A stretch of 64,000 nucleotides of DNA, taken from Owenia fusiformis (lineage: Eukaryota; Annelida; Polychaeta; Sabellida; Oweniidae). A program made the position numbers and the translations under genes. Below, piece after piece: positions 1,802-25,400 of the stretch. Under the pieces are notes generated by a model. That model was given only the letters and a program-made list of their open reading frames with translations, made no database searches and had not been told where the DNA came from. Each line of letters starts with the position of its first letter. Position 1 is the first letter of the stretch. The stretch lies in assembly GCA_903813345.2 (NCBI GenBank), contig CAIIXF020000012.1, forward strand, positions 6,325,001 through 6,389,000. Direction: 5' to 3'.

Positions 1802-4800
1802 CTAAATAAGTTTAAGATGGGTTTACGCTCTTCTTTGAGTACCTGTGCAAGATCTCTCATTTTTGATAAGCTTTTAATAATTCTTCTGGACGATATCACA
1901 CAGTACGAGTACAAGAAAGTTCTTCTCATATGACTGTATTATGGCATATTTTCAGTTTTCAACAAAAACTTAGTGAAAAAACGAAAAAACCTTAAAACTT
2001 AAAATGACAAAATCATGGAACGTTTTCCCCAAGTTTTTTTTACCATCGTTGGTGCAAATGTAAGTCTGATACTGTATGGGCATGTAGTGTATCGTATGTA
2101 CATACTTCAGTAATATTGACAACCTTACCTCCGGGTTTATGTCTTCTATGGCATCAAGACAAAACATGCTGTTTATCCATAAAATAACTAAGAAGTATTG
2201 TTTCAAAATGAAGCCCTTTTCATAGTTTAAATGTTGAAAAATGCTCAGATTGCCTCGATTTGCGCCATATTTTAAATTTTTTCATTTGCACCCCCCAAAA
2301 TCATAAGCTCAACATTCAAATAATCGAACAAGCATTTTTTTTTTATTTCTTTCAGTTTGAATGTTTAGTTCGGGCACGTCTAGTCTAAATGTTTCATTTT
2401 GAAGATAACCCCTCTTAATTATAACACGCATCGGTATAATTGATCAGAGCTGTTAACAATACAATTCTATACCCATACATACCTAATGGCAGTGGAGGAT
2501 CATCACATATCTGGCATTCTTCCATACATGGGACCACTGCTTCTTTCTCATTATCATACCCACCCAGACAACTGTCCCAAATCGTATCAACAGCGTGACA
2601 TCCCTTGAAAAAAGATAATAGCGTTGAAAGAAATAATCTCACGCATCATTCATACTATAACACGTGCATTATAACATACACAGAACTAAATGTTATCTAA
2701 ATTGCTTGTCCCAGATGCACCAATATTCGATCAATAGATTATAACATTTGTATTATATGTGATGCCTGGGTCACATTTGTTCCGATCCATCGGCAGGCGC
2801 CCGGCCGATTGAGTGTTTTGTTCAAAGTATTCAATGTTGAAAAAATAGTCAATCTGCCGGGCGCCGTAGTGAAAATCGTAGCAAATGTGACCAAGGCATA
2901 ACAGAGCAACATGCTCGACTACACCAAATCATTGCAATTATGCTATCGCGTGGATTCAGTTTAACAAGTGTTGGTTCACTAGCCTATCAATGATGAATGA
3001 TGAACAAACCGGTTTGATTATGCAGATGGAACTACATTTACTGAGATAGTATTTCTTGCATATTGTCTGACATTTGTAATATGGTTGATGTGGTGGCGAC
3101 GGTGGCGTTGGTGGCGGAGGAGTTGGTTGGACTGGTGTATGACATATCTGGCATTTCTTCATACATGGTATCACTGCAGCTTTCTTGTTGTAATAGCCCT
3201 TCCAACAGTTGTCCCAAATTGCTTCATCCGCATGACAACCCTGTAAGTAAAGAAATCACGTTGACCAGATCCAGACTACAAGCTATTGCTTCTCTCAATC
3301 GAATCGACATCCTTGGACAAGACTTATAATTTGAATTAGCCTTTAGGGGTTTATTTTCTAGATATATACAAGGGGCGATCCATATATTCTGATAAAAGTG
3401 CTCTCATTTTGTGATTTTTTCACATATCTCTCTCATCTTTTCAGAAAATGTAGATTATGTAATTACACATACAATGCTAAATATAATAGCTACATCTTAA
3501 ATTATTTATGAGATAAGGTTGCCATGGTAATTATTATTTTAAAGCATGCGGAAATCATGCATTTTTAAAAAAAAGTTCGTTATTGTTACTCCTTGTTTGT
3601 TGCTAAACAAATGTTTATTTGAGCTAACTATAACATCACAGTACAGCAACTCACAATAGCATTGTAACATGTCATGAGAAACACCAAAAATCAAAATGTG
3701 AGATGAGGTCAATGTGGCTGATGCAGAGTGTGGCATTAACAGATACATAAGGGAATACCATTAGATTTTATTTTCTATCAAGAATAAATTAGAAGACACT
3801 GTCAGAGACATACATGGACTCGTTAAGTGTATGGACAAGGTGTTATATCTGCACAAAGAATCTATAGGTAGTATTGTAAAGAGGAAGGCATGGTCACTGT
3901 TGAAGATCATCCACAATCTGGTTGCAAGAATAGCTTGCGGACAGAGAATAACACTATGATAAATTGAGATGTTACTTATGAAAAGATAGCTATCCCACTG
4001 TGTAAATTATCAGACAAAGGGCAACAGGGGTATGGAACAGTTCAACGAATAGTTGGCAATGACCGGAAGATGCATTTGATCTGCTTAAAATAGGTACTGA
4101 GGAATGATTACATGTTCTAAAAAATGAAAGGGACATGTGAAAAAATCACAAAATGAGAGCATTTTTATCAGAATATATGGATCGCCCCTTGTATATTAAA
4201 AATTAAGGTGATTCCGAGCACAACAATGTATCATATATATATCAAAGTCATGGAAGTCAATATTAGGCAAGATATTTAATTAAAAAATAACCGTTGGAAC
4301 CGTCCGGGCCACGCTGTGACAGCCGCCCAGTCAAGTATCGATCGCTGCCTATAGGAGGAGGAGGAGAAAAGAGTGGTATCGATATGGAGAACTGAATTCA
4401 ACAATGCTTTTCTCTTAAACCAATCATTGAAAACATTCTGTAAAAACACGGTATTTTATGTAATGTTGACTGACTGACATCAATTTAATGCGAAAATTAT
4501 TTAGAAATATTTTAAATAACTGTTTTTGTTAACATCTTTTGTTTTTTAGTACAATTGTTTTTGTTCCTTTCTACCAATTCTTGAGAATGAAATAAAATGT
4601 CTTTCCGAACCTTGTTGTAACAAAATAGCGTATACAACATGTTTTTAGACCTCTCAATATTATAGTTATACAAAGGAATTTTTGGTTGATTTTAGAAAAG
4701 TATTCAAAAAATTAAAACAAAATCCCCAAAATAGAAAAAAATCAAGATAAACCTTTTCTTTCATTAACAAGATACTATTTTTTAAAATCAACCAAAATTT

Positions 4801-7800
4801 TCTTTGTACAATTACAATATTGAGAGACCTAAACATGTTGTGTTTATGTCGTTTTGGTCCAATGAGGTTCAGAAAGATGTTTCATTTCACCCTGGAAACA
4901 TGATACCAAGAACAAAACAAGTGTTTGATGTGTTTTCTAAAACAATATAGATGAAAGTATTATATATATATTTTTAAATTATATTGTTACCATTCATAAA
5001 ATGATGTGTTAAATTTTTAGAATTTTTTATGACTGGTTTAAGAGAAACGTGTGTTCAAAAAGTTCTCCATATCGATACCACTCTTTTGCAGAAAAGATTA
5101 AATTGAAAAAAAGAACTGTTAAATACGAAGTAGATTTTACATACCTTCTTGATTTCACAAGTTAAACTACATTTTCCGACTTTGTATTTCCCACATAGTT
5201 TCTTGCATTTGGTGTAAATAATTGGCCCTTCATGGTCATGTCCTTCCGGAACTGCAATGAAATCTAGAAGTTTGAAACGATAAAATGGGAAACAAATACT
5301 GAAGTAAAATTATCTCGAATGTCGTTTTGTAAGAGACCGTTTTTTCTTTGCACTTTTGGAGAAGTCGTCGTGTATATACATGAAATATTAAAAAATGTTA
5401 TAAATATATCAACACGTATCAGGTACATCTCATGTATAGAAGACGAAATCAACAAAAATGAATCGGAAATATTCGAATGTAGACGCAGTTATTGAACCTG
5501 ACTGTTCAGTCATTATCCTTACACAATGTCCGGCTACTTTACATTTGGTAGTCTTGGATACATACCGAACGACATAGCAACTTGGTCAAAATGGTCGCTG
5601 ATTAGCCAAATTATCATTAAGTGTCATCAAACAGTGTGTCATGCATATAAGTATTCACATATCGAATATGAACAAAATCGCTCCTCTAGATTTCAAGTTA
5701 CAGAAAAAAGGGTTTATTCGTCGACATTACACCTGGTCTGAAAATAAAAAAATCGGGCCAACGGTATTAGGGTTATTGCCCAGATAGACGGACGAACGGA
5801 CAGACGGAGGCGTTTCCGCCATATCTTTTTTCAAGTCCGCATGTTGCTGAACAACTTCAAAAGTCTTTGCAATCGCCCAAATCACTCTATCACTTTATTG
5901 TAAATAGCCAAGGTTGTCAATATTTGAAATTGCCTGAATGTATTGATTGCCTTTTTAAAATGTTTATCCTCATGTATGCTGATGACACTGTTATCTTATC
6001 AGATACAAAGCAAGGTCTACAAAGTGGTCTTGATGCGTTAAAATCATATTGCGAGCAAAATAAACTTGTCGTTAATGCTAAAAAGACCAATGTTGTAATA
6101 TTTTCTAAGAAAAAAACCAAAGAAACATTTAGATTTTTATATGATGGAGAACAACTCAAAATTGAAGACTCATTCAAGTATTTGGGAGTCTGGTTCTCTT
6201 ATAATGGGAATTTTCGCAAACATGTTAATTTATTATTACGAAATGCAGAAAATGCTATGTATGGTGTCTTAGGCAGATGTACAGAGATGAGCTTGCCACT
6301 CGATATACAATTACATTTATTTGACTCATTAATTTTGCCAATTTTTACTTATGGATGTGAGGTATGGGGATGCTCCAAAGCAATGCTCATGTGTGAAAAA
6401 CTTCATTTAAAATATTGTAAATATATCTTGAGAGTTAAACGAGCAACACCATCGTTTATGATATACAGTGAGTTAGGTAGATACCCTATTGAAGTATCAA
6501 TAAAAACAAGGATAATTAATTTTTGGAGTAAATTAGTCACAAGTGACACTTTAAGTAGCAAAGTATATAAGGCAATGCTAAAACTATACAAGGAGGGTAT
6601 TTATAAGTCACAGTGGTTAAGGTGTGTAGAGAATATTTTAAATGAATGTGGTTTTCCAAATATCTGGATATCTCAAAGTTTTGATAGTAGATTTGCACTG
6701 AAATTAAGAGTTAAACGCAAACTAAAAGATCAATTTTTCAAAAATGGAATACAAACCTTCAGGAAAGCACATATCATTTATACAAGGCAATTAAGACCAA
6801 TATTAACTTTGAATCTTATCTCCATCACCCATTGAGCATACGTCTGTACATGACAAAATTTAGGATGTCAAATCATAATTTACCAATAGAAATTGGAAGG
6901 TACAATAATATACCAAGACTTTCAAGAATATGTAAACATTGTAACAAATTAGGTGATGAATATCATTTTATACTAGAATGCTTATTATTTAAAGATCAAA
7001 GGGAGAAATATTTAAAACCATACTTTCAAAACAGGCCAAATATGTATAAATTAATTGAACTATTTACAAACAAAACATATACAATTCAACTAAGTAAATT
7101 TTTACAATGCATTTTGAAAGGATTAAACTAAATAACTGTCATTTGATATTGTATCAATTTTGTATTACATGTATATTGTATATGTATTTATACTCACAGG
7201 TGTGGGTAGAAATAAATCTAAACTGAAACTGAAACCATCTACAACCTTAGTTGTAAAGAAATCCAATTACAGAATTAATTATTTACATATACTTACAAAG
7301 ATGTATATTTTAATATAACAACATTGTTCGTTAGCTACTCAAACATGTAACATATTCTGCTCATTCCATTTTAATACATTTGTTGCAAAATAACGAGAGA
7401 TATACCGACGTAGTAGTTTGGTCAGTTTTGACATAATTCAAAGTTCTATCAATACTCCACTAGTGTCCTTGATTTTAATTTATACTTTTACCATATTGTG
7501 ATCTAACAAATAAAACAACAATGCAAGATCCAATATACATGTGTTGAGTGCACGATAGCCAATGCGAACATATGACATTTTATTCTCACCACACGGAGGT
7601 TGATCACAGTTTTTGGACTCAGTTTCTTGAGTCTTCCCTTGACATGGAGGTAAACCTGCGTACGTTCTTGTTCTACTTCTATATTTTTTCCCGGGCCCAC
7701 ATGTTGTAGAACAATGACCCCAACCACTCCATCGCCTCCAGGGCAACCTACAATTAAATGGTATCCATGTACATTTTATCCAAACAGAATATTACAGTTA

Positions 7801-10800
7801 GTTTGTAATTTACAAAGTAAAGAGTACTTGTTATAAAAGGGTTAATGGACCTGCTTATATTATAAAAGTATGACATCTACACATACTTTTATAATTGTCC
7901 TTTATGAATAAATTACAGCTTTGTTCTGGGATTTTTTTTATAGCAATGTTTATTTAAATTTCCAAACTTTGAAGAAAGTAATAGAAAAATTCAGACATGG
8001 AGTGCATATATCTGTATTATCTTTACATCTATTCGTAATGAATTTTTAGAAATACTCGGGGATATATCCACTTCATGAATTTATTACTCAAGTATAGAAA
8101 TATATGATGCAATTATGAGTTAGTTAAATCTTTTCTTTTTTAAGATGTTTTGGAAACAATTTGATAATATAAGTCTATTCTCACAAGGTGGATTGTCACA
8201 GCGTGTGTGGCAAGTCTCACTTGAGGTACCAACACATACTGGTGGACCCCCTAATATAATTTGTTTCGTTCGTGTTCGAGTTCCATATCTCTTTCCTGGC
8301 CCGCATGTTGAAGAACATCTTCCCGAGGTTTTACATTGTCCCCAATCACTCCATCTACAGCCTATATTATAATCAATCTATGCCGTTACATATCTATTAA
8401 GATTGCAAGTCTTAATGACGACATTTTTCTCATATATGACCAGAGAATACAATTCGATGTAAAAATATCATTTTATTCTCACCGCAAGGTGGATTGTCAC
8501 AGGGTCTATTGCAAGTCTCACTTGAGGTACCAACACATACTGGTTGACCTCCTAATACAATCTGTTTCGTTCGAGTCCGAGTTCCATATTTCTTTCCTGG
8601 CCCACATGTTGAAGAACATCTTCCAGAGGCTTGACATTGTCCCCAGTCACTCCATCTACACCCTGCATTATAATCAATCCATGCCAATAAATATCTACTA
8701 AGGTTGCAAGTCATAATGACTACATGTCGTCTTATATGATCAAAGAAAACTATTCGATGTGAAATATAATTTTATACTCACCGCAAGGTAGCTTGTTACA
8801 GGTTGCGTAGCAAGTCTCACTTGAGGCACCGATGCATTTTGAACACCCTGGGACATTTTGTTTTGTTCTTGTTCGAATTCCATATCGTTGACCTGGTCCA
8901 CATGTTGAAGAACATCTCCCCGTTGCTTTACATTGCCCCCAATTACTCCATCTACAGCCTATATTATAAATAAACCTTTTTAAATAATTTTACACGTCTT
9001 CTTAAAGAGATCGAGTCTCCTAAAACACATTTAAAGTACCCCCCTGATTTTTTCGTGTTATTTGATGTAAAACAAGATTGTTTATCAACTTACCAATGCT
9101 TGAAATAATTCGTTAACAGTATCAATTTGATATTTGTTCCTAGCCATGAATTTCCACTTACATCAATAGAAATTAAAAATAAAATTTAAAAAGCACGCTC
9201 AAATTTGTTCCAGTCTGATTGGCTTTCTTCTTCAGTTTGAACAGATTGTTTTGGTTCAGAAGAGCAATGTTTAAAACATAGATAAATCCCCAAAAATATT
9301 TTTTTTACTGTTTTCGACTTATTGTGTTCAATTCTGACAGTTGGTTGTTCTGTTGGTTGTCCTGTTGATTTTTTCAATATATTGGTGAAATTGTGCTTAT
9401 GATTTGGTCTTAAGATATATCTAAGGTACCGTATATATGCTGTTTTATGAGCAATTATATTGCGACATTACTGATTGTCCAGAATAGAAATCTGGACGAC
9501 TGGATCTCTTTAAGATAAGTATTCAAATCGAAATTACAATTTTCTCACCGTAAGATGGATTGTCACAGGGTGTGTAGCAAGTCTGACTTGAAGGACCGAT
9601 ACATTGAAATGGACCTGATACAATTCGTTTCGTTCGTGTTCTAGTACCATATTTCTTTCCAGGTCCGCATGTTGTAGAACATTTTCCCAAGCCTTTACAT
9701 GGTCCCCAAGAATTCCACTTACAACCTACAAGTGAATCAACTTACAGCATTAGGTATATACATTATAAAAGATATACAGCTTTCAATAATAATTATTTTG
9801 TTAATATCTTTAAAATATCGCCACAAACATTTACATTCTATCCATTCATGCCACGTTTATCTTAGTCAGCACTTCTACTTTGTACAACTATCCAGCCAGC
9901 CAGGTTCAGGTTTAACTGGTAACGATTTTAGTCATTTATAATGTTTCCTTTAGTTATTCCTTGATAAATAGACATTAACTGGGTCAATGTTTTATGTCAA
10001 ACCTTGCTTTCATGACTTTTAAACATGAGTCGACAATTATGCAGGAAATTACATTTCCAATTGTCAGCGTGTCGACTAGTGTCATTTACAGTACATTTGG
10101 TACCATTTGTACATTTTCTGATAGGTATATTATAAGCAGTTATGTCATTGAATTGAATATATGCCTAAGGTCTGTCACCAATATAGCCCGAGCTTGCGAG
10201 GGTTATATTACGACAGACATAACTGTTGTATTACATACTTTTATATCATGGCTACGTTATATCAATGACGCCACGTGTCTGTGTGCGAGTGAAATTAGGA
10301 AGAAATGAAACATGACGTCCCGATGACGTCATAAGATTGTCATGGTAAAAGGTTTGGCGGCTATACAGGAATATATAGCCGACCTTCAGCTCCATTGACT
10401 TCAATACAAATGCTTCGCTGGGTATGTAATACAAAATAATAAACCAGAGGTCAACTTTAATTGTGGCACCATCCTCAGTAAATATTGATGATCATACGAA
10501 TTTCGTATATGACTAATAGTGACTGAACCTCACTCGACCGAAAATATATAACGTTTTATTCTAACCGCAAGGCGGATTGTCACAGGGTTTGTAGCAAGTC
10601 TGGCTTGAACCACCGACGCATTTAGATGGCCCTAAAACAACTTGTTTCGTTCGAGTTCGAATTCCATATCTTTTGCCAGGCCCGCATGTTGTAGAACATC
10701 CTCCCGAGACTTTACATTGTCCCCAAGGATTCCATCTACAACCTACTTTATAATTCAGTACACATACAGAAATATTAAAATACATTCCAATTACGATATT

Positions 10801-13800
10801 TTCTGTTCATATTTCAAAAATATTGACAGAAACATTTCACGCTCAATTCATTGCTGTGACTTTGATACATACCTATTTGTATAGAATGCCAACGCAGTTC
10901 ATCCCAATGGAATTCATAGGGCATTAATCAACAATACCCAATTGGATGACATAAGGTTCTAATTAGTATAAGTAAACTTTTCGAGGGATTTTTTCTCCAT
11001 AATCATGATTTCAAACAACTTGAATCTGCTAAAACTCCTCGGATTCCTTAAACATAGACTGATCAAATAGACTCGTTTTTTTGCGGAAAACTTTATTTAA
11101 CCCTTTAAACAATTGTTATACGTTTTTCACTTGATCCAAATTAAGCATCTTTAATAAAGAAATGATAACAGATAGCATCGAAAATATATAAGCAGATTTG
11201 TAATTTTAAGCGTGCAGTTTGTTGCTCAGCTTTAATTCTGTATGGCATTATTCTTTTAAACAGCTATGTATGCAAATATTTTATTCCATTCAGTAAAACT
11301 TTCAAGTGGTTTAAAAACACCATAATTTCACTTATCACAATCGCACAAACCGCTTCCCTAATATTAAACAAATACTGGATGACCATGAGGTGGTTATGCC
11401 AGAATACCTATCCTAGGAAAAAAATACTAGGCGAGGCGAAATTTACTTTATTATGCACCTCCCTTGGTTAATATCATATTCCTACCATTAATTTACTGTA
11501 GATAAATAAAAGATGGTGTCAAGAAATACTTTATTTTAAAGAATGGGTCTACTAAAACAGAAGCCGAGCCTCGAATTGTTTTTTTTGAGGATAGGTACGG
11601 TATTCTGGCATACGGGATGGTTGGAGATCTCGTTGCTTCAATACTGGATAGAACGAGATCTCGCTGCCACGTATGGCATAGAATCAGATTTGAGTATTTT
11701 AATGAGGTGCATGATAAATACATTTACATTTGTAACATGTTCCCCGTGTGAATTGATAATTTCCTTATTTTAGCAATTGTGATGCTACATCAATAGATTC
11801 CTTTCACATTTGGGAAACAATTAAAGAATCTTCTAATGGCATTAGCTCTGGATTCTCAGTATACGATTGCAATTAGACACCGAAATCTGACAGACCGGTT
11901 ATGGCCTTTTAAAGGTGAAAATGTAATACTATTGGAGTTGATCTTTTGTCATCAGTCCTTTGAAAAAAACATTAATTTTATATCTAAGCACAAGTGCCAC
12001 AGGGAAATAATGACCAAAATTGTAAAGAAACCTAACAAGTAAATTGTCGTAAATTTAGACCCTACATATCCCCAAAAACCATGATCTAACGGAAAAAAAT
12101 TATGACCAACTCCTCCCTTCCTCGAACACGAGTCAATATCACAATCTAGGATGAGAACATCAAAGGACATTTTATTCATACTGAAGTCCTCACAATACAT
12201 GTTGAAGAAAAAATTGAAAAAATGATCATAACATATAAAATAGTTGTAGAGATAAAGCAAGTTAGAAGAACTTTATCCAGGCCATTAAGTCACAATTTTT
12301 ATTCAAAAATACACTATCAAGCCTAGAATCTTAAGTCTAAAACTGAATTTCGTTTATATTCTCAGGTTGACTGGATCTATTCATATACCTACATACCTGG
12401 TGGTGGCGGTGGCGGCGGCGGTGGCGTATGGTGTGGTGGGTGTGGCGGATGTGGAGGGTGTGGAGGTTGTGGTGGGTGATCATCACATATCGTGCATTTT
12501 TCCATACATGGTATTACTGCAGCTTTTTTGTTGTAATAGCCTTTCCAACATTTATCCCAAATTGCTTCATCCACGTGACATCCCTTTTTAACAAAATGAC
12601 AAAGTACAACAGCATAATACTAACTGGTATATTACTCAATCCAACACAATCATTGGAAATATCAATATCTAACAAAATCATTTGCGTTGTAGTCGAGACA
12701 AAAATGTTATTAAAATTAATCGAATAATAAGTTAATGAATACTTGCAATTGTTTGAATCAAATATGTGAAGCATTATCGCTATTTCACAATGACAGCATA
12801 TTATTTAGCATATATGAAATACATGTATTTCCAAACGTGTAATAACAGCTTTGTCATACCCTATTTTTACCTCATAAGAACTACAAAATGCTTATTTGAA
12901 ACAATACATTTACGTTTTAACGTTTGAAAAGTTTTTCAATTCAGTTTTTATGCTCCTCTCGACGTTTTTTGTTTGGAAAACAATTTGTTTTATATACAAT
13001 TTAGAGATTTTTATTTGATAATCCTTATCATCTTGCCTATTGTAAATGTAGCAGAATGAGACAGGTAACAGATACTATTAAAATTATGAAACAGGGGCTT
13101 TCAATATGATGCAGATTCGACATACCTTCTTGATTATACAAGTGGAACTACTACATCTTTCGACTTTGTATTTCTCACACATTTCCCTACATTTACCAAA
13201 AACTGTAGCTCGAGGAACTAATCAGCATCAATAGAATAGGAAACAAAAATTGAATGACAACAGTTCGGAAAATATGCAAACGTTCTTCAACGTTGTCAAA
13301 GTTGTCAGAGTTCAGATAACCAGATAACCTGTTTAGCATTAGGGGACAGCGGGGCAAGACGGGCCTCCTAAGAGCAGTCATTTTTAATGGGTTGTGAAGA
13401 TGTTTTGCTACGGTTTTTGTCTGCTGAGCCGCTGTCCCCTAGTTAAAAGGTGGCCCAAGTGGTACGACGTCAAATACTATCTGTACATCACAAAATTCTT
13501 ACATTTCACACGCGGACTTTTTACGTCATAAAAACTCGTCTGCTAAAGGCGCTGCAAGCGGTCGGTAAAATACTGCGTTTTGTTGGTTAAACTTTACACA
13601 GAGTTCTTTAATAGTGAAGTGAACAGGATCAAAACATACAATTATTTAGAAACATGCTGATATGCATCATGACGAAGGACCTTCTTCAAAAATATTATAT
13701 CATAAAATAGACTTACCACAGCACTCAGGTGTCTCATTAGGACATCCGTATCCCCCCTTTAGAACTTCTCCACTATAACACCTATATCGACAAATTCCAT

Positions 13801-16800
13801 TTATAGGGTGGACTTCACAAGCTAGAAAATGGCAAATTGTTTCATGTTCAACAAAAATAGGTAGGGCATACATTTCCTATTTTATTGAACCCCGTCCTTA
13901 CTTGCATCCTACGAACTTCACCTTCATGAGATTGTGTATGCTACATATACCTAGGGTTAAATTGGAAGTTTTGGGATTTTGGTTCGCGAATTCTTGTTAA
14001 AACTACTATTAGTTCCATTACGTCCACGTATTGAACACAATTAAAATTACAACTCGCAAATATCCATTTTGCATCATTTTGGACCATTTGGGAAAGTAGG
14101 GTTTGGATTTTGGGGCTTCATACTTTTTTAATGCTGTGGGTTAAAAATCGAAACAAACATTATTTGCATTTAAGACATTTTCAGTGTTGGATAACTATTA
14201 TTTTGATGTTTCATTTGAAAACTTATGTGTGGACTTAAAGTGAAATTGGTAGAATGGATACGTGTATATCTCTATTCTTTAAAAAGTATGTTAGAAACAA
14301 TAAATGATAAAAATAAATTCAAAGAAAACTAGTTTTTTTATTTCAAAACTAGACTTTTTGAATCGTTCAGTTTGACATGTATGAATCTTGTATTCATAGA
14401 AAAACATATAAGGGACATATAGGCAGTTACATTTGAAGATAACACATGTTACCCTTTTAGTTGTTACACGGTAAATATAATACAAATATATGTCATATTC
14501 CGCAACGAATATGGAATGTTCACTTGCTGTGTATGACATATTCACCCGCGGTACATGTATATGGCATATACACTTACCAATAAGAGCGTGATACGGAAGT
14601 ACGCAATTGTCAATTACATCGATTCAACGAACGGGCTTAATTCCATAACTCATAATAACGATTACTGAATTAACATTGCATTGAATATATCAACTTATAC
14701 AATTGAATGGCATACACCAGCGGTACCTGTATTGTTTGATGTTATTTCATGTAAATGTGTTTCACGCAATAACATACTCCAAGGGAAACATCATTACACA
14801 TAAATAAACGAACCTACGTTCGTGAAGCTTATGAGTGACTTTTGTTACCAAATCAACAGACAAAGACAAGAATAAAAACCTAAAAATCACAAATATTTAT
14901 ATATTGTTGTATTGGCAATCACGATTGACACATTTCTCATACTTTCAGAAGTATCATTCAGCACTTACACGCAATAAATGTACTTAATCAATCCAGGATT
15001 TATATATAAGTACTTGAAGCGCTAAAATATTGGTAACCCAGCGCAACTTTACATTTAGAATTGATTCTTTTGACCAATCAAATTGAGGCTTTCTATATCG
15101 CGTTTTCACGTTCGGTATATGGCATATTCCGCAGGTGAGTATGCCATATTACGCAGGAGAGTATGACATATTTCACAGTGAGTATAGGGTATTCACTAAG
15201 ATCAATGTATCGCATATATGACATACTCACCTGCGGAATATGCCATATACCGCAGGTGAGTATGGCATATTCACCCGTATCACAAAAACCGCACAACCAT
15301 GAATATATGCCATATTCCGCGTAACATAAGCGACCCCTTGTTATATATGTAATTAGTAACATTGCAGAGAGCCGTTGAAAATATAATCAAAAAATATACA
15401 AAAACAGACCTGGATGACATATCTGGCATTTTTTCATACATGGTATCACTGCAGCTTTCTTGTTGTAATAGCCCTTCGTACAAGTGTTCCATATTGCTTC
15501 ATCCGCGTGACATCCCTGGAAGTTAAGAACAAAATACAACAAGAAAATTCTTTTTTTTATATATTTTTTTTATTGAATCAAACATAAAATAATACATTAA
15601 ACAAGGCAAAGATGAAATATTAAACCACTTTCACACCACCTCCATTCATTCAGACATTCGCAACAGTCATACCCAGAAGTTCTGGTATATATATAAACAT
15701 GGTATTTTCAAATTGAGTCACGTCCAAGTTGGGATTTACCTCATTAAATTGTTTTGCATATATATAATATTTGATTGCAAGTGATAGCCTGTTTTGCAAA
15801 GTGTTTTCATTATTTACAGATCTTCCGAACACCATATCATGGGCATTAAAATTAAGATTTACATTGAATGATTTCCCCAAATTATCTTTAATAGCTTTCA
15901 AAAAAATCTGAATCCGCCTACATTCCCAAAACTTGTGCTTTAAAGTGTCTCTTAATGGACAGTAACTACATCTAGCATCCTGTTTAATTCCTATCTGCGT
16001 TAAGTAAGCATTTGTGGTACAAATACCATGTAGAATCTTAAATTGAAGTCGAATTTTATTTTGTTTCGTGCAGCTATAAGCCACTTAAAGTAATCTATTC
16101 TTCCTAACTCACGATCATGTTCATTTTTATACAGTGGTTCCAAATATTTGTTTCTATTTAATATTTTTTGAATTGACTTCACTGTTAAACCATTCAATGG
16201 CACTGGTTTTTCGCCAAGTGTTAAATGCACAAGATCCGTTTGTAGGCTCGGTTTAAAGACTGAAGTTTAGTCTCGCTTCAATAAACGTTTCCACTCCTTC
16301 GGTACAGCTGATATTATAGCATAATAATCAATAAAATTAATTTGTACGTTGTATTTTGCCTTAAAATCATAATACTGTAAAAAATGTCCCTGGTCATTTA
16401 GGATGTCATTTACGTAAACGACACCATTATCCATAAGATGCTTATTTATGACCTCTTTGTTATTAATTAGGACCAATCTATTATTCCAGAGTATTTCACT
16501 TTTAACTTCAGAACTAGTTCTTGGAGCTTGGATATTCCTTATATCAGAGTAAATTTGTAAAACATTTGAGTAAAATTAATTCTGGCACGTCGTGGGCTAT
16601 TGTTTTAATATCAAAATTACATTGTATAAAGAACTTAATTCCCCCAAGCGGTTTGAAGTACAATTCTGGAATATATTTCCAATGACTTTGTCGAGGTTCG
16701 ATTAATCTTTTTAGCCACATCAGTTTAAGTGCTTTTTCCATTGAAAACATGTCAATCATTCTTAGACCACCCTCGTCGTAATCACCAATTAAAGTTCGTC

Positions 16801-19800
16801 TCTTAACCTTTTCCGTTTTTCCACCCCATAGGAATGAGTAAATTATCTGTTGTGCCTTTGTTAATATATCATTTGGGGTATTTGTCATTGACATGGAATA
16901 TACCAGTTTAGAAATACCAAGCGTTTTGATTATCAGAACTCGACCATATAAAGTTAAATTTCTTCTTGACCACATTTTCAATACTTTTTGAAGCGAGTCT
17001 AATTTCTTCTCAAAGTTAACAAAATCATTTGATTTCCTATTATATGAGACACAAATTCCCAGAAATTTACTTGGATCTTTAACCCATTTTAAACCGTATA
17101 ACTTATCTCAGTTCTAGATCTTTCTGAACCAATATACGTACATTCTGTCTTTTCTTTGTTAATACATAATCCAGAAATATCTTTAAATTCATCAAAAATG
17201 TTTAAAGCCAGTTTAAGAGATTCTTTGCTATCTACTGTCAGTGTTGTATCGTCAGTATATAACTCGATCTTTTGCTCATTATTTCCCAAGCGGATCCCTT
17301 TAATAGCCTGATCTTGTCTAATTCTAATTGTCAGGACTTCTATCACTAAGATAAATGTCAAACAACTCAAGGGGTCCCCCTGCCTACATGATATTTTAAT
17401 ATCGAACCAGCCAGTTGATCTATTATTATTCAAAACACAACTCTTTATATCTGTATAGAATAATTTTACCCATTTAATTAGTGTGTCCCCGAAATTAAAA
17501 AGTCTCAACACATAATATATACACACATCTATATAATCGAATTCAACACTATCGTAGGCTTTAAAAAAATCGACCATGCAAATAATGCCTGGAATGCACT
17601 TTTTCTTAGAATATTCAAGAATATCCTCTAGGTACCGTATGTTTTCGCCAATAAAACGATCTTTGATAAAGGCTGTCTGGTCGGGCCCTATAGGTTTCGC
17701 CAAAATAACACTAATACGGAGCGCAATTGATTTAGATGCAATCTTATAGTCAATGTTAAGTAACGTGATTGGGCGCCAATTTTTCAAAAACCAATGATTT
17801 TTGTCCCCCTTTGGTACTAACGAGATAATACCCTGTCTTTGACTTACTGAGAGGATACCCTTTTCAAATGACAAGTTTAGAGACTTAATAAGCATTTCAT
17901 TGATTTCATTCCAAAACATTTATACCACTCTGTACTCAACCCGTCACTCCCCGGGGTTTTTCTATTTTTAATATTTGTCAAGGCCTTATAACATTCATCG
18001 ACCCTCAGTAAACCTTCACATGAAGCCTTTTCATGTTCATTTAACTTATTTATGTTAAGATCTTTCTCAAAACTAACGAACTTTTGTGTGTCAGCTTTAG
18101 CCTTGGAGTCATAAAGATCTACATAGAATGCTTTAATTTGGTTAAGTATATCTGTCTCATATGTCACCACATTACCATCAACATTTAATTCAGTTATAGT
18201 TTTCTTTGAATAGTTTGATTTCTCTAAGTTGAAGGAGTAGTGTGTGCTTTTTCCCATTTTTCTACCCAGTCAGATCTTGATCTCTCGATGCCCCCCTCTG
18301 CTTTATATTGATATATATCATTTAGTTTACATTTTGCATCGTCATATTCTCTACACGCTTTTTCATTCAAATAATCATCCTTAACTAGTTCAGAGTCCAG
18401 GCTTTCAATAACTTTCAACAACTTTATTTCCTCTCCCCGTAGTTCCCTTGCCTTTTGCTTTGAAAATTCAATAGTTTTTACTTTAATCTGATATTTCAAA
18501 TATTCCCAAAATTGAATATCATCAGCGTTATTCAGAGTTGTTTTAGTTTTAGCGATAAGTTCCTTAATTAACTTTTGATATGCTTCATTTTCTATTAATT
18601 TATTATTAATTTTCCAAAAACCCGACCCTCCTTTGTGAGTGACAGATGAGTTAATAATTAACACAATACATTTATGATCGGACTTAATTGATGGCACTAT
18701 TTTGCTTTCTGATTCTTTAATCATATGTCTTTGAATAAGCCACATGTCAATTCGACTTTTACTGACAGAGTTTTGCATATTATCCTTAGCATAAGATTCG
18801 TATGTATACTGGAATTTTGTGGGATTTTGGTGTCTCCATACGTCAATTAAGTCAAAACGATTCATATACTCAATCAAAGAATCTCTAGATAGGTCCTTTT
18901 GTTGACTTACTATAGCCCTAGAATATCTATCTACCTCTCTATTTAACACTACATTAAAATCACCTCCAAATATGACATTATCAGATGCAAAATTCGTGGA
19001 TACAATCACCGATAGTTCAACAAGAAAATTCTAGATGTTGCATCGCCAAATCAAATTAGACCAGATAAGGGTCAACATCAACATGCAACAAAGTCATTAA
19101 TTGTGCGTGTCACATCTTTGTAAACCAGTTTAACCTCATGGCATAAACTTCAAACTGCTAAATGAATTGATTAAATTTAATATAGTCGCGTTTTCAATTA
19201 TTTTCAACCATTTTGCCGTGTGCACCTTTTGTTGTTCTAAAAAAAGTATTTATGAAGAAATAAGATAATGCTAAACAATTTGATAACGTGACACTTTCAA
19301 ATATGGCGGGATTAGAAAAGTAGCAAAAGGATTAAAATTATAGAACGAGGCCTTGGATTTACAAACCTTCTTGACTCGACAAGTGGAACTACATTTTCCG
19401 AGTCTGTATTTCCCACACATTTGCTTACATTTGTTGAATGGTCCTTCGTCGCCATGTCCTTCCGCAACTGCAATGCGAGAAGCTACTACTAAATCTCCAA
19501 AATGAATAAAATTGAAAACAAATACTCGAAGATAACAATTTGTGAATATATTTCAACGCACTCAATCATGTTCTTAAAATGACATATTAAACATAACGTA
19601 TTTTGAAAAATTTAATATATTTACCAAGCATAAATGTAGCAATTATTAAAACTCTGGTAAAACTCAACAATCAGACCAAAGTAGTGAATATCGTCATGTA
19701 TGTTACACTCAATTTTTAATTATTGTATCAAAATAAATCATAAGTCTTCATAATAAATACGTATCATACTTACACGATAGTCCGAATACAAGTAGAGCCA

Positions 19801-19825
19801 AGGTATAACTTATTGTTAACGTCAT
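1692..19825 (-). CDS. Gene A: secreted multi-module TSR protein (spliced gene span)
   Basis: Whole span of a spliced gene. The coding order from the 5' end is: signal peptide (19774-19825), a-b module (19367-19467, 15410-15515), defensin-like exon (13717-13821), a-b module with a polyproline tail (13126-13217, 12397-12583), five intact TSR exons (10566-10742 to 8185-8361), one frameshifted TSR exon (7590-7747), two further a-b modules (5145-5251, 3010-3240, 2483-2603) and a terminal exon (1692-1801). Without the frameshifted exon the parts sum to 2100 nt and the junction codons join in frame, giving 699 aa. The protein should be extracellular. TSR domains usually bind glycans or other proteins; a specific role cannot be read here. 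An alternative is that the a-b exons from 5251 downwards form a separate small gene, with a candidate first exon at 5566-5617. Confidence 0.75.
2483..2603 (-). CDS. Gene A exon A15, 'b' half of a-b cysteine module
   Basis: A phase 0-1 exon, acceptor 'tttcaag' and donor 'gtatgt'. It starts GCHAVDTIW and holds five cysteines with C-x3-C-x2-C near the end (PCMEECQIC), then a short Pro/Leu tail. It is the most diverged of the gene A b-exons: the usual YYNKKAA core is replaced by a Glu/Asp-rich stretch. Confidence 0.8.
2763..2899. mobile_element. Short fold-back element (MITE-like)
   Basis: About 135 bp in an intron of gene A with inverted ends 'tgcctgggtcacatttg' and 'caaatgtgaccaaggca'. Its GC-rich interior contrasts with the flanks. 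The phrase GTCACATTTG next to CGG-rich sequence recurs at 31684-32640 and near 54655-54750, so it is one copy of a dispersed family. Confidence 0.7.
3010..3240 (-). CDS. Gene A exon A14, fused b-a exon with polyproline hinge
   Basis: A phase 0-0 exon of 77 codons. The first half is a b module (GCHADEAIW ... YYNKKAAVIPCMKKCQIC). It continues through a Pro-rich hinge (TPPPPTPPSPP) straight into an a-type module with the CxxxC-x7-CxxxC core (KCQTICKKYYLSKCSSIC). Elsewhere in the gene b and a modules are on separate exons, so an intron is missing here. The donor 'gtttgt' lies at the same codon position as in the other a exons. Confidence 0.82.
3369..4191. mobile_element. Tc1/mariner-like non-autonomous element with TA duplication
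   Basis: Near-perfect inverted ends of about 60 bp: left 'caaggggcgatccatatatt', right its complement, each bordered by TA (3367-3368 and 4192-4193). The interior of about 700 bp has no long frame. A short plus-strand stretch near 3900 reads like a decayed transposase, which is weak. It lies in an intron of gene A between 3240 and 5145. Confidence 0.75.
4368..5096. mobile_element. Large fold-back element
   Basis: The ends 'agagtggtatcgatatggag' and its reverse complement are at about 4370 and 5090. The interior is also largely self-complementary: about 4610-4700 pairs with about 4790-4880, around 'gacctctcaatatt' and 'aatattgagagacc'. The whole block could fold into one long interrupted hairpin. 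No coding content was seen. Confidence 0.7.
5145..5251 (-). CDS. Gene A exon A13, 'a' half of a-b cysteine module
   Basis: A phase 1-0 exon, acceptor 'attgcag', donor 'gtatgt'. It begins VPEGHDHEGP and carries C-x3-C-x7-C-x3-C before the EIKK end. The start resembles exon A2 (AEGHGDEGP), which directly follows the signal peptide exon in gene A. That raises the option that this exon also sits near the start of a gene of its own. Confidence 0.82.
5566..5617 (-). CDS. Candidate alternative first exon upstream of A13 (uncertain)
   Basis: From an ATG at 5617 an open stretch of exactly 52 nt ends in TTCG followed by donor 'gtatgt'. The two accepted signal-peptide exons (19774-19825, 61368-61419) are also 52 nt and phase 1, and gene B's also ends TTCG. 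If used with exons 5145-5251, 3010-3240, 2483-2603 and 1692-1801 it gives an open frame of 206 aa. Against it, the peptide (MIIWLIS, then DHFDQ) is only partly hydrophobic and is a poor signal sequence. Chance is possible. Confidence 0.25.
5765..5806. repeat. GACGGAC-rich transposon tail fragment
   Basis: The phrase 'ttattgcccagatagacgga' followed by further GACGGAC units matches the tail of the repeat near 28137-28195. Similar tails occur at 31210-31265 and 43010-43055. These look like ends of one dispersed repeat superfamily. Confidence 0.5.
5807..5893 (-). pseudogene. TSR exon relic, 3' portion, split by a LINE
   Basis: The plus strand reads 'gtccgcatgttgctgaacaa' and continues to 'cccaaatcactctatcac', closely matching the middle of live TSR exons (for example 23618-23672). 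The outer part of the exon is missing or scrambled. The matching start of the exon ('ccatctacaacctt') is at 7235-7245, on the far side of the LINE, so one TSR exon was broken by the insertion. Confidence 0.75.
5894..7234 (+). mobile_element. 5'-truncated non-LTR retrotransposon (LINE) fragment
   Basis: Plus-strand coding remains of a reverse transcriptase C-terminal half. They include the catalytic YADDT motif (about 5968-5982), the FKYLGVWF motif, and a cysteine/histidine cluster CKHC ... EYHFILEC. A frameshift near 6790 separates two frames (to 6835, and about 6780-7131). AATAAA is at 7211-7216, and the 3' end is a short CTGAAA repeat. The fingers, palm start and endonuclease are absent. 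The copy is antisense to gene A and dead; its clade is not assigned. Confidence 0.85.
7235..7245 (-). pseudogene. TSR exon relic, 5' portion
   Basis: 'ccatctacaacctt' gives the start of a TSR exon (acceptor ..aag, then GTTGTAGATGG). It resumes exactly where the relic at 5807-5893 stops, so the two are halves of one exon. Confidence 0.65.
7590..7747 (-). pseudogene. Gene A exon A12, short-type TSR with a 10-nt frameshift
   Basis: In the TSR frame it reads PWRRWSGWGHCSTTCGPGKK up to CDQPPCG, a clear short-type TSR with intact splice sites ('gtag' acceptor, 'gtgag' donor). Compared with its copies at 56197-56364 and 51395-51562 it lacks 10 nt, 'accccaaggg', just after the start; the flanking GGG repeats suggest a microhomology deletion. 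Entered in phase 1, as all other family exons are, it runs out of frame and meets a stop in the next exon. It must be skipped, be a pseudo-exon, or be an assembly error. Confidence 0.8.
7748..8184 (-). other. Intron of gene A duplicated in gene B
   Basis: About 440 bp with no exon. Phrases such as 'gtatccatgtacatttta', 'ccaaacagaatatt' and 'gttaatggacctgc' recur in the same order in the gene B intron at 46419-47059. The pair of exons around it is duplicated too. Confidence 0.7.
8185..8361 (-). CDS. Gene A exon A11, long-type TSR
   Basis: A phase 1-1 exon of 59 aa: CRWSDWGQC, CSSTCGPGKRYGTRTRTKQ, then C....ETCHTRCDNPP. The donor lies three bases earlier than in most copies, so the exon ends CCA CCT T. 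The last cysteine is then made across the junction only if the next exon begins GT or GC. Exon 7590-7747 begins GT, but the next intact exon (5145-5251) begins TT. Confidence 0.88.
8483..8662 (-). CDS. Gene A exon A10, long-type TSR
   Basis: A 60-aa phase 1-1 exon. It has W..W at the start, the CSSTCGPG core, the basic ladder KKYGTRTRTKQ typical of the Arg-ladder strand of a TSR, and eight cysteines ending CDNPPCG. It is about 95% alike in design to exon 8185-8361, its downstream neighbour. The flanking intron carries the phrase 'gattgcaagtcttaatgac' that marks the duplicated exon units in gene B. Confidence 0.9.
8782..8958 (-). CDS. Gene A exon A9, long-type TSR
   Basis: A 59-aa phase 1-1 exon with the variant loop KQNVPGCSKCIGASSETC. 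The same loop appears in gene B exons 50362-50538, 31416-31592 and 28541-28717, so these form one subfamily crossing gene borders. It ends CNKLPCG rather than CDNPPCG. The extra Cys in the loop gives nine cysteines. Confidence 0.88.
9549..9725 (-). CDS. Gene A exon A8, long-type TSR lacking the last Cys
   Basis: A 59-aa phase 1-1 exon (CKWNSWGPC, CSTTCGPGKKYGTRTRTKR). The usual PPCG end is PSYG, so the final cysteine is replaced by Tyr. All else is intact, including the splice sites. The same change is seen in gene B exon 50849-51028. Confidence 0.88.
10171..10218. repeat. Short imperfect palindrome in intron
   Basis: 'tctgtcaccaatatagccc' pairs with 'gggttatattacgacaga' around a short centre. 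It may be an end of a decayed element in the 0.8-kb intron between exons A7 and A8. Nothing else recognisable was seen in 9726-10565. Confidence 0.35.
10566..10742 (-). CDS. Gene A exon A7, long-type TSR
   Basis: A 59-aa phase 1-1 exon: CRWNPWGQC, CSTTCGPGKRYGIRTRTKQ, ETC-equivalent QTCYKPCDNPPCG. It is the first TSR after the polyproline module. Its intron donor is 'gttag' rather than 'gtgag'. Confidence 0.9.
11395..11611. mobile_element. Small fold-back element (MITE-like)
   Basis: 'ttatgccagaatacctatcc' at the left pairs with 'ggataggtacggtattctgg' at the right, about 217 bp in total, in the intron between exons A6 and A7. No coding content. Confidence 0.5.
11986..12200. repeat. Dispersed repeat, second copy at 35281-35522
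   Basis: 'aagcacaagtgcca', 'accatgatctaacg' and 'acattt(t)attcatactgaagtc' occur in the same order in both places. One copy is in a gene A intron, the other in a gene B intron. Either an unknown mobile element or a shared ancestral intron would explain it. Confidence 0.55.
12397..12583 (-). CDS. Gene A exon A6, 'b' module with polyproline/histidine tail
   Basis: A phase 0-1 exon of 62 codons. A b module (GCHVDEAIWDKC, YYNKKAAVIPCMEKCTIC) is followed by DDHPPQPPHPPHPP and then a run of nine prolines before the donor 'gtatgt'. The Pro-rich tail probably acts as a stiff spacer before the TSR array. The repetitive codons (CCA CCT CAC) suggest the tail length may vary between alleles. Confidence 0.85.
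13126..13217 (-). CDS. Gene A exon A5, 'a' half of a-b module
   Basis: A phase 1-0 exon of 92 nt with the core KCREMCEKYKVERCSSSTC, ending IIKK at the donor 'gtatg'. The spacing between the third and fourth cysteines is one residue longer than in its copies. It pairs with 12397-12583. Confidence 0.8.
13339..13441. mobile_element. Very short fold-back element
   Basis: 'taggggacagcgg' and 'ccgctgtccccta' bound about 100 bp in an intron of gene A. It could be a solo MITE; no duplication of the target was identified. Confidence 0.45.
13717..13821 (-). CDS. Gene A exon A4, beta/big-defensin-like cysteine module
   Basis: A phase 1-1 exon of 35 aa, acceptor 'ttttctag', donor 'gtaag'. The cysteine order is C-x8-C-x3-C-x11-C-x6-CC, with GICRYRCYSGE across the second and third cysteines. 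This fits the relaxed beta-defensin spacing (4-8, 3-5, 9-13, 4-7, adjacent pair). The stretch before and after resembles the C-terminal domain of mollusc and horseshoe-crab big defensins. It lies between two a-b modules and joins in frame. Six cysteines within 35 residues can fit other small disulfide folds, so the family call is by pattern only. Confidence 0.7.
14480..15330. repeat. Palindrome-rich 'catatcc/ggatatg' repeat cluster
   Basis: Repeated copies of 'tatgccatattccgcaggtg' and its complement, densest at 15108-15310 and with scattered copies near 14490-14575. Arms face each other, so the block can form several hairpins. The intron interval 13822-15409 otherwise shows nothing recognisable. 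The frame at 15093-15362 is the repeat read through. Confidence 0.65.
15410..15515 (-). CDS. Gene A exon A3, 'b' half of a-b module
   Basis: A phase 0-1 exon of 106 nt: GCHADEAIWNTC, GYYNKKAAVIPCMKKCQIC, ending HPG at the donor 'gtctgt'. It completes the first module of gene A with exon 19367-19467. The two are separated by a 3.9-kb intron holding a LINE. Confidence 0.85.
15537..15551. repeat. Target-site duplication, left copy
   Basis: 'caacaagaaaattct', identical to 19018-19032. The pair bounds the LINE at 15552-19017. Confidence 0.85.
15552..19017 (-). mobile_element. Tx1/L1-like LINE, 5'-truncated and frameshifted
   Basis: A minus-strand element of 3.47 kb with a T-rich 3' end (15552 onward on the plus strand). 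It keeps the C-terminal half of an apurinic-type endonuclease (GGDFNVVLN, SRIDMW, SDHKCI at 18224-19009), a linker, and a reverse transcriptase (NWRPITLLN, FKAYDSV, RQGDPLS, YTDDT at 17089-18257). The thumb region follows at 16544-16981. At about 15900-16000 there is a zinc-knuckle end (CSYC ... KHKFWECRR). The active-site motif is YTDD instead of the usual YADD. Several frameshifts break the frame. Identical 15-bp flanks show a fairly recent insertion into a gene A intron. Confidence 0.9.
19018..19032. repeat. Target-site duplication, right copy
   Basis: 'caacaagaaaattct', the partner of 15537-15551. Confidence 0.85.
19367..19467 (-). CDS. Gene A exon A2, 'a' half of a-b module
   Basis: A phase 1-0 exon, acceptor 'attgcag', donor 'gtttgt'. 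It starts AEGHGDEGP and holds KCKQMCGKYRLGKCSSTC (CxxxC-x7-CxxxC), ending RVKK. It directly follows the signal peptide exon, as exon B2 does in gene B. Confidence 0.85.
19774..19825 (-). CDS. Gene A exon A1, start codon and signal peptide
   Basis: ATG at 19825. The 17 codons MTLTISYTLALLVFGLS form a typical short hydrophobic secretion signal. The exon ends one base into the next codon at donor 'gtaag'. Length (52 nt) and phase equal those of exon B1. An AT-rich stretch with TATATA lies about 105 bp upstream, near 19928-19934, but is not distinct enough to call. Confidence 0.8.
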
Positions 19826-22470: not shown

Positions 22471-25400
22471 CTAAATGCAAATTGGTTTATACATATATTT
22501 CAACAACCTATGTATACAATTGTAGTCCTCTCCTGAGGTCAACTGGCGGCACAATTGTATATACCAATACTATAAACCTTGAAATTACTGTGGACCAAGA
22601 CCAGATATCAAGGTCAACAGTACGTGTTGAAAGAATAGAGAGGTTAACAATTGTTTTGTAAGTGTGAAGAATATTATCATTATCCCATGATTGCAAGGAT
22701 GTATATCGACTATCACTTGAAGATATATTTATATGTGGATCAAGTTTTTTCTTTTTTTATCAAAAAATCTCCAAACCATCGAATATCACTTCTTAAAAAA
22801 AAATTTTTTTAATTGTGAGAATTTTCAAATATTTGAGGCTTCGGCTTTATTAATGATGGACAGCGCCGTGATGGAGCATTCTGTGATTAAAATTTCCCGA
22901 CTGTTTTCAAAAATAATTAAACATCATCAGTCTCAAATGGATCCGACATTTTTACATCAGTCTTGATGCGCACTTGATAATGATGTTTGATAACAACAAA
23001 TAAGCACGTACAACAATAGCAATGATCCCAAGCAAATATCTTGAACTTTTCGCCACGTGGACAAGACTTTATTATTTCCAAACCATCTGAGATCTTCTCA
23101 CACTTGAAAAGGTTGTTTTGATACGGTTGATGCCAGGTTGCGTCGATGCAGCACCATGGAGGAGAAGCGTCATATTTCCAGTGACTCCTCGGAGGACATA
23201 TCTCTGAAAAGAAAGATATAAATTGGAGAGCATTGACAAAATCATTTTGAACACTTACATAACATTTGATATTTGAAACCAGGTTTCTGTTAGTAAGACA
23301 GCTGAGTTATTATATATACGTACGTATAATGGTGAACATATCGTCCTTTCCCTTAGAGTTTGAATTCTGTTTCAATTTTATGTTTTAATTCCTTTATGGG
23401 ATACCGTAATGATATACGGTCAAGTTTCCTAATGAAGATATGTTTATCTCTTAAGGACAGAAACGTAGTGGTATTTGTTTTGGAATTATAATTTGATTCT
23501 CACGGCAAGGTGGATTGTCACAGGGTCTGTAGCAAGTCTCGATTGAGGCACCATTGCATTGATATGGACCTAATACAATTCGTTTCGTTCGGGTTCGGGT
23601 CCCATATCTCTTTCCTTGCCCGCATGTTGCTGAACATCTACCAAAGTCTCTACATGGTCCCCAATCATTCCATCTACAACCTATAGTAAAGGTGAGCCCG
23701 TTTAGACTATAAATTATATGCACTCTTTGAGAGCTATTATTTTTGATTTAACATTTTTTTTATTATTAATGTTTTTATTATTCTTAAATCATAGTAATTT
23801 ACAAAGTACAAGAAAGCAAGACCAATCGCCATTTGGCATTACAGGTCGCTTTAACATAAATATAGTTTAGAAGCAAGTAATAATAAAACAAAAAAAGTGC
23901 ATAAAACTATTGAAAAGTTTTGTTGTTGATTGCTTAGTTGCTTAGTTGTTGGGGATATTTTGGTCCAGGAGGTTTGGGCAAGTTTTAGATTCTCAATGGG
24001 TAAATGTAACATGATCTAACAAAGTTGAGCACAATGTTAAGAAGTAAGTTTTGTGAATCACGGCTAAGGGTATTTTCATAGAGGAGATATTTGACTTGAT
24101 CATTTCGGTTGGTGTAGATGTTCTCATCATAGAGAAGGTTGTTTTGTCTAAGTGCAGTAATCATGTTTGTCCTATCATCAGTATGGCGGGGGCAAGAAAG
24201 GAGAAAGTGCTTAGTATTTTCAGGGGATCCACATGGACACTTGTTGTCGGTTACACCAATAAAATTATGAGAGAAAAAGTGTTCTTTTAAAAATAAATCG
24301 ACACGAAGTCTGTTTAAAATCTTCTCATTTGACCTTGTTAAGTTTAGCTTGGTTGTTGGAATGAAATTTATGTTTCGGAGAATTGTTGACCGAACAGCAT
24401 TTTTAAAACTAGAGATGGTTGGTAATTCTCTTATAAGTTGGCTAAGGTTGTTCCATTTTTTATAATATTTAAGACAGGGGCTTTAAGGAGTCTGATAGAA
24501 ACATTAGTTGGAATATTGTAAGGCATAGAATGTCTCAGTAGTCTGGTGGCTGGGTTTTTATATTTGTCAAATATGTCGCATATATATTGTGCTACATTTC
24601 TTTTGTTTATTTTGAACATTATCCGAACATTTTTTTCATTTCTCCTTTGACTAAGGGTTTTCCAGTTAAGGCATTGAAGAACTTTGGAGGTATCTGAGCC
24701 ATGAAGAACACCTGCACATATTACACCTGCTTGATAGTGCAATTTATCAAGTTTTGCTAATAGGGCTAATGAGGCAGACCCATACAAGGCACTGCAGTAG
24801 TCAAAATTTGATGCTACATAGGAGCTATACATTGTTTCAAGGTGTTTGGATCTTACACTATTTGACAGATACTTGAGTGGATTAAGGAGTTTTTGAACTT
24901 TCCGTGAAAGATAGTTAATATGGTCTTCATAAGTCAAATTTTCATCAAGGATAAATCCAAGATGTTTGTGTGAAGTTTTACATGGAATGACTTCTCCGTC
25001 AAAATAAAGTGGCGTTTTTTGGAAGTTTTTGATCCGGTTTGAGTGGAATATGACTTGGGCACTTTTGGAAGGTTTGAATTTAAGGAACCATTTCTTTGAC
25101 CACAGATTAATTTTATTAAGATCATTTTGAATCTGATCTGTTTGAGCATTTGATGGATGAAAAAATGAATATAGAGATGTATCATCAGCATATATGTATG
25201 CTTCAGAGTCTAAGTTGTCTGGGAGGTCATTTATATAGATGAGGAACATGAGGGGGCCTATTACTGAGCCTTGAGGAACACCAGAGTTTATGAAGTTGTT
25301 GTCTGAGAATTTAGAATGTTGGTCATTGATTGATACACAAACTTTTCTATTCCTCAGGTAAGAATCACAAAGATCAATTGTTTTGCCGTTAATTCCATAA

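Follow-up and report, generated by a model that had tools for sequence, protein, structure and literature searches.

A beta-defensin-like exon in a predicted secreted thrombospondin-repeat gene of the annelid Owenia fusiformis

Organization of the locus

We analyzed a 64,000-nucleotide stretch of the Owenia fusiformis genome (assembly GCA_903813345.2; C12:6325001-6389000, hereafter the window), the minus strand of which carries a predicted gene, gene A, with cysteine-rich (Cys) modules, a thrombospondin-type repeat (TSR) and, between two of the Cys modules, a 105-nucleotide exon with a defensin-type cysteine pattern. Gene A can be read as seven exons, given here in window coordinates:

19774-19825, minus strand: exon 1, start codon and signal-like peptide MTLTISYTLALLVFGLS (signal peptide by eye), ending in phase 1
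19367-19467, minus strand: exon 2, first half of Cys module 1 (EGHGDEGPFNKCKQMC...), phase 1 to 0 (acceptor placed by eye, by comparison with the similar genes B and C)
15410-15515, minus strand: exon 3, second half of Cys module 1 (GCHADEAIWNTC...CQIC), phase 0 to 1
13717-13821, minus strand: exon 4, beta-defensin-like module, phase 1 to 1, cysteine spacing 8-3-11-6-0
13126-13217, minus strand: exon 5, first half of Cys module 2, phase 1 to 0
12397-12583, minus strand: exon 6, second half of Cys module 2 and a Pro/His-rich linker, phase 0 to 1
10566-10742, minus strand: TSR exon 1 (Pfam TSP_1), possibly the last coding exon, with an in-frame TAG directly after it

These seven exons join as one open frame that runs from the signal peptide through Cys module 1, the defensin-like exon, Cys module 2 and the Pro/His-rich linker to the TSR and a stop codon. 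Exon 4, read on the minus strand from 13821 to 13717, enters and leaves in phase 1; its acceptor is CATTTTCTAG and its donor GTAAGTCT (AG and GT sites, the GTAAGT donor matching the consensus), and with its junction codons it encodes ACEVHPINGICRYRCYSGEVLKGGYGCPNETPECCG. The spacing of its cysteines falls within the beta-defensin range of C-x4-8-C-x3-5-C-x9-13-C-x4-7-CC; typical beta-defensins have a shorter first loop. All six cysteines, Gly9, the reading frame and both splice sites are intact. Judged by its sequence, the exon is a beta-defensin-like module. A first-pass annotation of the window had already noted the exon and its spacing, both of which are real, and had placed the ends of the neighbouring exons at 15410 and 13217, which fit the phases and splice sites read here.

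A family of beta-defensin-like exons

A search of the genome (498 Mb, 525 contigs) with the window peptide returned four other places, the best at C8:953981 (E 9e-12, 75% identity) and the remaining three weak (E 0.03, 1.6 and 1.9). With more queries and a reading of the fetched stretches, at least 14 further such exons were recognized, for a family set of 15 modules including that of the window. The spacing described in the first-pass annotation thus stands, while its treatment of the exon as a lone pattern gives way to a family of at least 15 exons. The six cysteines are invariant in all 15 modules and Gly9 is kept in at least 90%, in a set that comes from one genome and includes several members picked by their Cys pattern near signal exons.

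We then scored profiles made without the window exon against 2108 six-frame open stretches of at least 20 residues, taken from the whole window. The window exon ranked first with an E-value of 3e-13 (next best, 0.087), and again when the row of its nearest paralogue, C8a, was also removed (1.1e-11; next best, 0.012). An eight-row profile of three C10b copies and five C4 genes, which is not the most distant subset, as two rows share 53% identity with the window peptide, still found the exon at 2e-5 (next best, 0.15). That held-out profiles find the exon argues that it is no chance pattern.

In the stand-alone genes C8a, C8b, C3 and C10b, a signal-peptide exon (MN-[SFY]-L-[TS]-LL-[VL]-CIV...) ends in phase 1 and is followed by the defensin exon; the phase-1 intron before the Cys-rich region was read by eye in four stand-alone paralogues. 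A phase-1 splice donor follows the terminal CC in 15 of 15 modules, a count made with a filter that itself demanded a six-Cys frame with GTAAG directly following CC, and that left uncounted a CCG-GTAAG site in C4_304 (near position 800), which failed it. Because of this donor, symmetry seems to be an inherent property of the defensin exon in this animal. The stand-alone genes probably have a third exon that encodes a short basic tail with a stop codon, as suggested by one conserved downstream block in two C4 genes, which offers a last exon reading ...VSNLKRR-stop or ...VPYPLRR-stop.

Several family loci show further structure. On the minus strand of C10:13350001-13360000, four phase-1 defensin exons lie in the same orientation behind a single signal/promoter exon (about 13359118), and further signal-exon profile matches are absent over 20 kb; this tandem locus is possibly a poly-defensin or alternatively spliced gene. 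Defensin signal-exon matches within C4:30360574-30519442 recur at offsets of about 94.8 and 90.5 kb, reflecting either a large tandem duplication or an assembly haplotig. Two near-alike Cys-rich modules (CEETCRVDNDCLQY...) lie on either side of the C8b defensin gene (C8:20708896-20709120 and 20722371-20722652), and downstream of the C3 gene (C3:4457427-4457886) lie decayed, incomplete copies of the defensin exon, from its 3' half.

Similarity to beta-defensins

Across the 15 members, Defensin_beta_2 (PF13841) was the sole Pfam family matched at E ≤ 1, in 5 members, with a best E of 0.0022. A genome search with the same family gave no member over the cut-off and three weak matches (E 1.93-9.77), none at the family loci; the corresponding search with the big-defensin family PF14862 gave no credible member, its best match (E 5.39) containing three stops. 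Against PDB sequences, the family profile matched four chains at E ≤ 10, of which three are beta-defensins (E 0.43-2.8) and the top one is an unrelated protein (E 0.27).

An AlphaFold (AF2) model from the 15 sequences reached a modest pLDDT of 74, superseding an earlier, poor run with 5 sequences (pLDDT 60), and has predicted short strands at residues 10-12, 21-22 and 33-35. All 23 Foldseek matches of this model in the PDB are defensin folds (E 1.1-9.1): 22 are alpha-, beta- or big-defensins, gallin included, and the last is helianthamide, which we take to be a sea-anemone peptide with a beta-defensin fold. The fold and profile lines are individually weak because the query has only 36 residues, and they agree jointly. 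The first-pass annotation had inferred defensin homology from the pattern and had proposed Pfam and structure-prediction checks; family, gene structure and predicted fold all speak for the homology, while the Pfam score stays below the cut-off and the structure matches, confined to defensin folds, all have weak E-values. We file the family as beta-defensin-like by family and gene structure, and not as beta-defensins proper, given scores below the Pfam cut-off and, as regards a stand-alone secreted peptide, given that no family signal/promoter exon was found for the window copy in window positions 1-24000.

Copying of the exon into gene A

Homology between the window exon and the stand-alone genes extends beyond the exon into intron sequence, which delimits one further feature:

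13676-13986, minus strand: minimum extent of the putatively copied DNA segment, from homology to stand-alone defensin genes

Relative to the exon start, DNA homology spans -4 to +146 for C8a (79% over 156 columns), -164 to +27 for C8b (71% over 204 columns) and -80 to +124 for C3 (69%). As flanking intron is homologous around the exon, this points to a copy made at the DNA level and not to a retrocopy, and from the sequences at hand DNA-level exon shuffling is the likeliest origin of the window exon. The TSR gene would be the recipient and not the donor, because stand-alone genes are many and the exon is absent from gene B.

We consider it likely that one of this animal's stand-alone defensin-like genes was the source of the exon: a copy of its beta-defensin-like exon, together with some adjoining intron, would have entered a phase-1 intron of a gene for a secreted Cys-module/TSR protein, giving a predicted mosaic protein. 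The donor-family exon would bring phase-1 sites on both sides, and a copy with some flanking intron would enter a phase-1 intron of the host; with such sites on both sides, the copy could be spliced into the host mRNA with the frame unbroken. The product would be a secreted mosaic of signal peptide, Cys module, defensin-like module, Cys module, Pro-rich linker and TSR, in which a small disulfide-knotted fold is tethered within an extracellular protein. Such a tethered module would probably act in binding or recognition rather than in free membrane lysis, because the window module has a net charge of -1. Net charges of the paralogues are +2 for C8a and C10a, +3 for C8b, +4 for the first C10b copy and +7 for C3. 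Low charge is not unique to the window: another C10b copy is also at -1 and C4_303 is acidic, on a rough estimate that, as for C4_2973, includes extra upstream residues.

The first-pass annotation had proposed a cassette in a chimeric immune or matrix protein. Phase, orientation, splice sites, frame and the lack of a recognizable signal exon of its own support a putative cassette; the frame would also survive skipping of the exon, and constraint on the window copy after capture is not demonstrable. An immune role is only one option, with the module at -1 and its nearest paralogue at +2.

Several results weigh against this interpretation. The window peptide scores 12.9 bits against PF13841 (E 0.16), with a cut-off of 22.2; two paralogues reach E 0.002-0.004, and the best singly scored member, at 18.8 bits, is also below the cut-off. 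A phmmer search of the PDB with the single window peptide gave no match, all Foldseek E-values exceed 1, and the VIA-align Z is at most 3.0. The frame of gene A is also kept when the defensin exon is skipped. Gene B has no defensin exon between its two modules, a Pro-rich linker standing there instead, and the exon is likewise absent from the portion of gene C covered here. Finally, the synonymous excess relative to C8a is marginal (one-sided Fisher 0.02 or 0.05, depending on rounding), and of the 22 differences from C8a, 8 were placed on the window branch, 6 of them nonsynonymous and 2 synonymous, and 6 stayed without assignment.

Alternative explanations

These last counts bear on an unlikely alternative, that the exon is a relic: a copy in an intron of the TSR gene that is normally skipped and has been kept by chance or is decaying slowly. 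Overall, the exon differs from C8a with a synonymous rate (dS) of 0.49 and a nonsynonymous rate (dN) of 0.18, i.e., a dN/dS of about 0.36. The window-branch changes, assigned after one loop codon had been dropped from each of 3 of the 4 outgroups for the codon alignment, are close to neutral, and constraint after capture is not demonstrable. Basic residues were lost on this branch at positions 13, 30 and 31, and degenerate partial exon copies occur elsewhere, downstream of the C3 gene. In simulations of neutral drift, 29% of copies kept the frame, six cysteines and GT/AG sites at 0.05 substitutions per site, and would thus still look intact, but only 8% did so at 0.10 and 2% at 0.15; against a relic also stand the intact cysteines, Gly9, frame and splice sites of the window exon, with a donor that fits the consensus.

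An improbable alternative is a separate stand-alone defensin gene that lies nested within an intron of the TSR gene and possesses a diverged signal-peptide exon of its own. A same-strand signal-exon match lies within about 5 kb upstream of 9 of the 14 other modules (three C10b copies sharing one upstream signal exon, and two modules falling outside the check), and the distance can exceed 4 kb. A promoter/signal-exon profile from eight genes found no match in window positions 1-24000 at E ≤ 100 with default filters. The same kind of profile recovered four of four held-out genes in a leave-one-out test (E 1.8e-29 to 6e-55), and the full profile recovered a gene outside its training set at 3e-72. 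Nor did tblastn with four signal exons give a convincing minus-strand match in the same positions, and no family-like signal peptide was seen by eye among the ATG-started peptides of intron 13822-15409. Genome-wide, signal-exon matches were found at 17 places, none on C12, in a search that was incomplete in that it missed the signal exon of C8b. For an exon copied into gene A, the native promoter and signal exon would either have been left behind or have diverged beyond recognition.

A six-cysteine pattern arisen by chance, or a small Cys-rich fold of another kind, would accord with the single-sequence Pfam and PDB results and with the unrelated protein that tops the PDB matches of the family profile, but is scarcely credible given the held-out family profiles (E 2e-5 to 3e-13), the 23 structure matches that are all defensin folds, the restriction of Pfam matches among 15 members to beta-defensin, and the absence of the CxC motif of CS-alpha-beta defensins.

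The copying of a defensin-like exon into gene A can also be set in a wider frame, which we hold tentatively and regard as possible rather than probable: the phase-1-flanked defensin exon may be a mobile protein cassette in this lineage, shuffled into a TSR matrix-type protein, with the tandem exons on C10 perhaps forming a poly-defensin or alternatively spliced gene. If so, extracellular mosaic proteins would draw on the defensin fold as a module of general use.

Relation to known defensins

Beta-defensins are usually treated as small stand-alone peptides, and in the literature searched (titles and abstract openings, with most subscription journals outside its scope) we found no description of a beta-defensin module in a TSR protein or between two lineage-specific Cys modules. 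Vertebrate beta-defensins resemble the family described here in their six cysteines ending in CC, a G-x-C-[RK]-x-x-C-like motif and short predicted strands, in a phase-1 intron directly before the Cys-rich region, and, as regards the stand-alone paralogues, in a signal peptide without a long N-terminal domain. They differ in that the Cys-rich region here is bounded by a phase-1 splice site on its 3' side as well, making the exon symmetric, and in that the window copy sits inside a multi-module gene and scores under the family cut-off. The disulfide pairing expected of a beta-defensin is Cys1-5, 2-4 and 3-6. Class 1-1 extracellular mosaics, e.g., TSR proteins, offer a different likeness: the modules of gene A start and end in phase 1, and a TSR is present.

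Beta- and big-defensin genes have in common a phase-1 intron immediately upstream of the Cys-rich region, and most big-defensin genes carry that region in the last of three exons (PMC7203481). The present family shares the position of that phase-1 intron with big defensins, and weak structure matches to them were found (6qbk, 2rng, 8bgk). It departs from them in the extra intron after the Cys-rich region, and gene A lacks the N-terminal hydrophobic domain of big defensins (PF14862), its upstream exon being a Cys module. The panusins of crustaceans have a beta-defensin-like Cys array without the big-defensin N-terminal region (PMC7203481); they are small peptides, whereas the window copy belongs to a mosaic gene, and the two are likened by description only.

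Exon shuffling of the Cys-rich exon is one of two hypotheses for the origin of vertebrate beta-defensins from big defensins (Zhou and Gao, as reported in PMC7203481). Should our interpretation hold, gene A would exemplify such shuffling directly, carrying a donor-family exon and its intron flanks within an unrelated secreted protein, and whether the defensin fold can act as a tethered recognition module would become testable.

Neighbouring genes and other features

Downstream of TSR exon 1 on the minus strand lie further TSR open frames and the paralogous gene B:

9526-9741, minus strand: TSR open frame, same transcript as gene A uncertain
8753-8989, minus strand: TSR open frame, likewise uncertain
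8433-8771, minus strand: TSR open frame, likewise uncertain
8123-8377, minus strand: TSR open frame, likewise uncertain
7483-7791, minus strand: TSR open frame, likewise uncertain
2418-5309, minus strand: open frames of gene B

TSR exon 1 matches Pfam TSP_1 exactly at the cut-off (21.6 bits, cut-off 21.6; E 2.6e-4), and its end runs into an in-frame stop (CG/GTTAG). Among TSR-type donors, GTGAG accounts for 11 of 14, GTAAG for 2 and GTTAG for 1, that of TSR exon 1, in a list whose pattern required GTNAG; splice-site weight matrices had been trained partly on paralogues, and only the donor list was used. Given the in-frame stop at its GTTAG donor, gene A may end after one TSR, and the five downstream TSR open frames may be part of a different transcript or be reached only through a weak donor. 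Of the TSR array that the first-pass annotation had assigned to gene A, one repeat is therefore borne out and the remainder is doubtful.

Gene B comprises Cys module 1a (5058-5309), one open frame with module 1b, a Pro-rich linker and module 2a (2959-3255), and module 2b (2418-2645). A genome search with the Cys half-module of exon 3 gave five matches at E ≤ 1, all on contig C12. The Cys modules of gene A gave no match in the PDB; one had a sub-threshold Pfam match to RNase_P_Rpp14 (E 0.011), which we took as spurious, and the other had no Pfam match. A tentative likeness to ShKT was also considered.

Many TSR open frames extend over 7483-60049 on the minus strand, with a Cys-module-like start at 59876-60049, which suggests a tandem array of several gene A-type genes in the window. 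Amid the TSR exons, two similar-looking Cys-rich stretches (PPWCC...C...C) lie at 22920-23306 and 40502-40798 on the minus strand. Reverse-transcriptase-like open frames were seen by eye at 16547-19030 and 23988-26961 on the minus strand and at 5771-6832 on the plus strand; these are probably pieces of long interspersed nuclear elements (LINEs), and the first of them lies within gene A, in the intron that separates exons 2 and 3.

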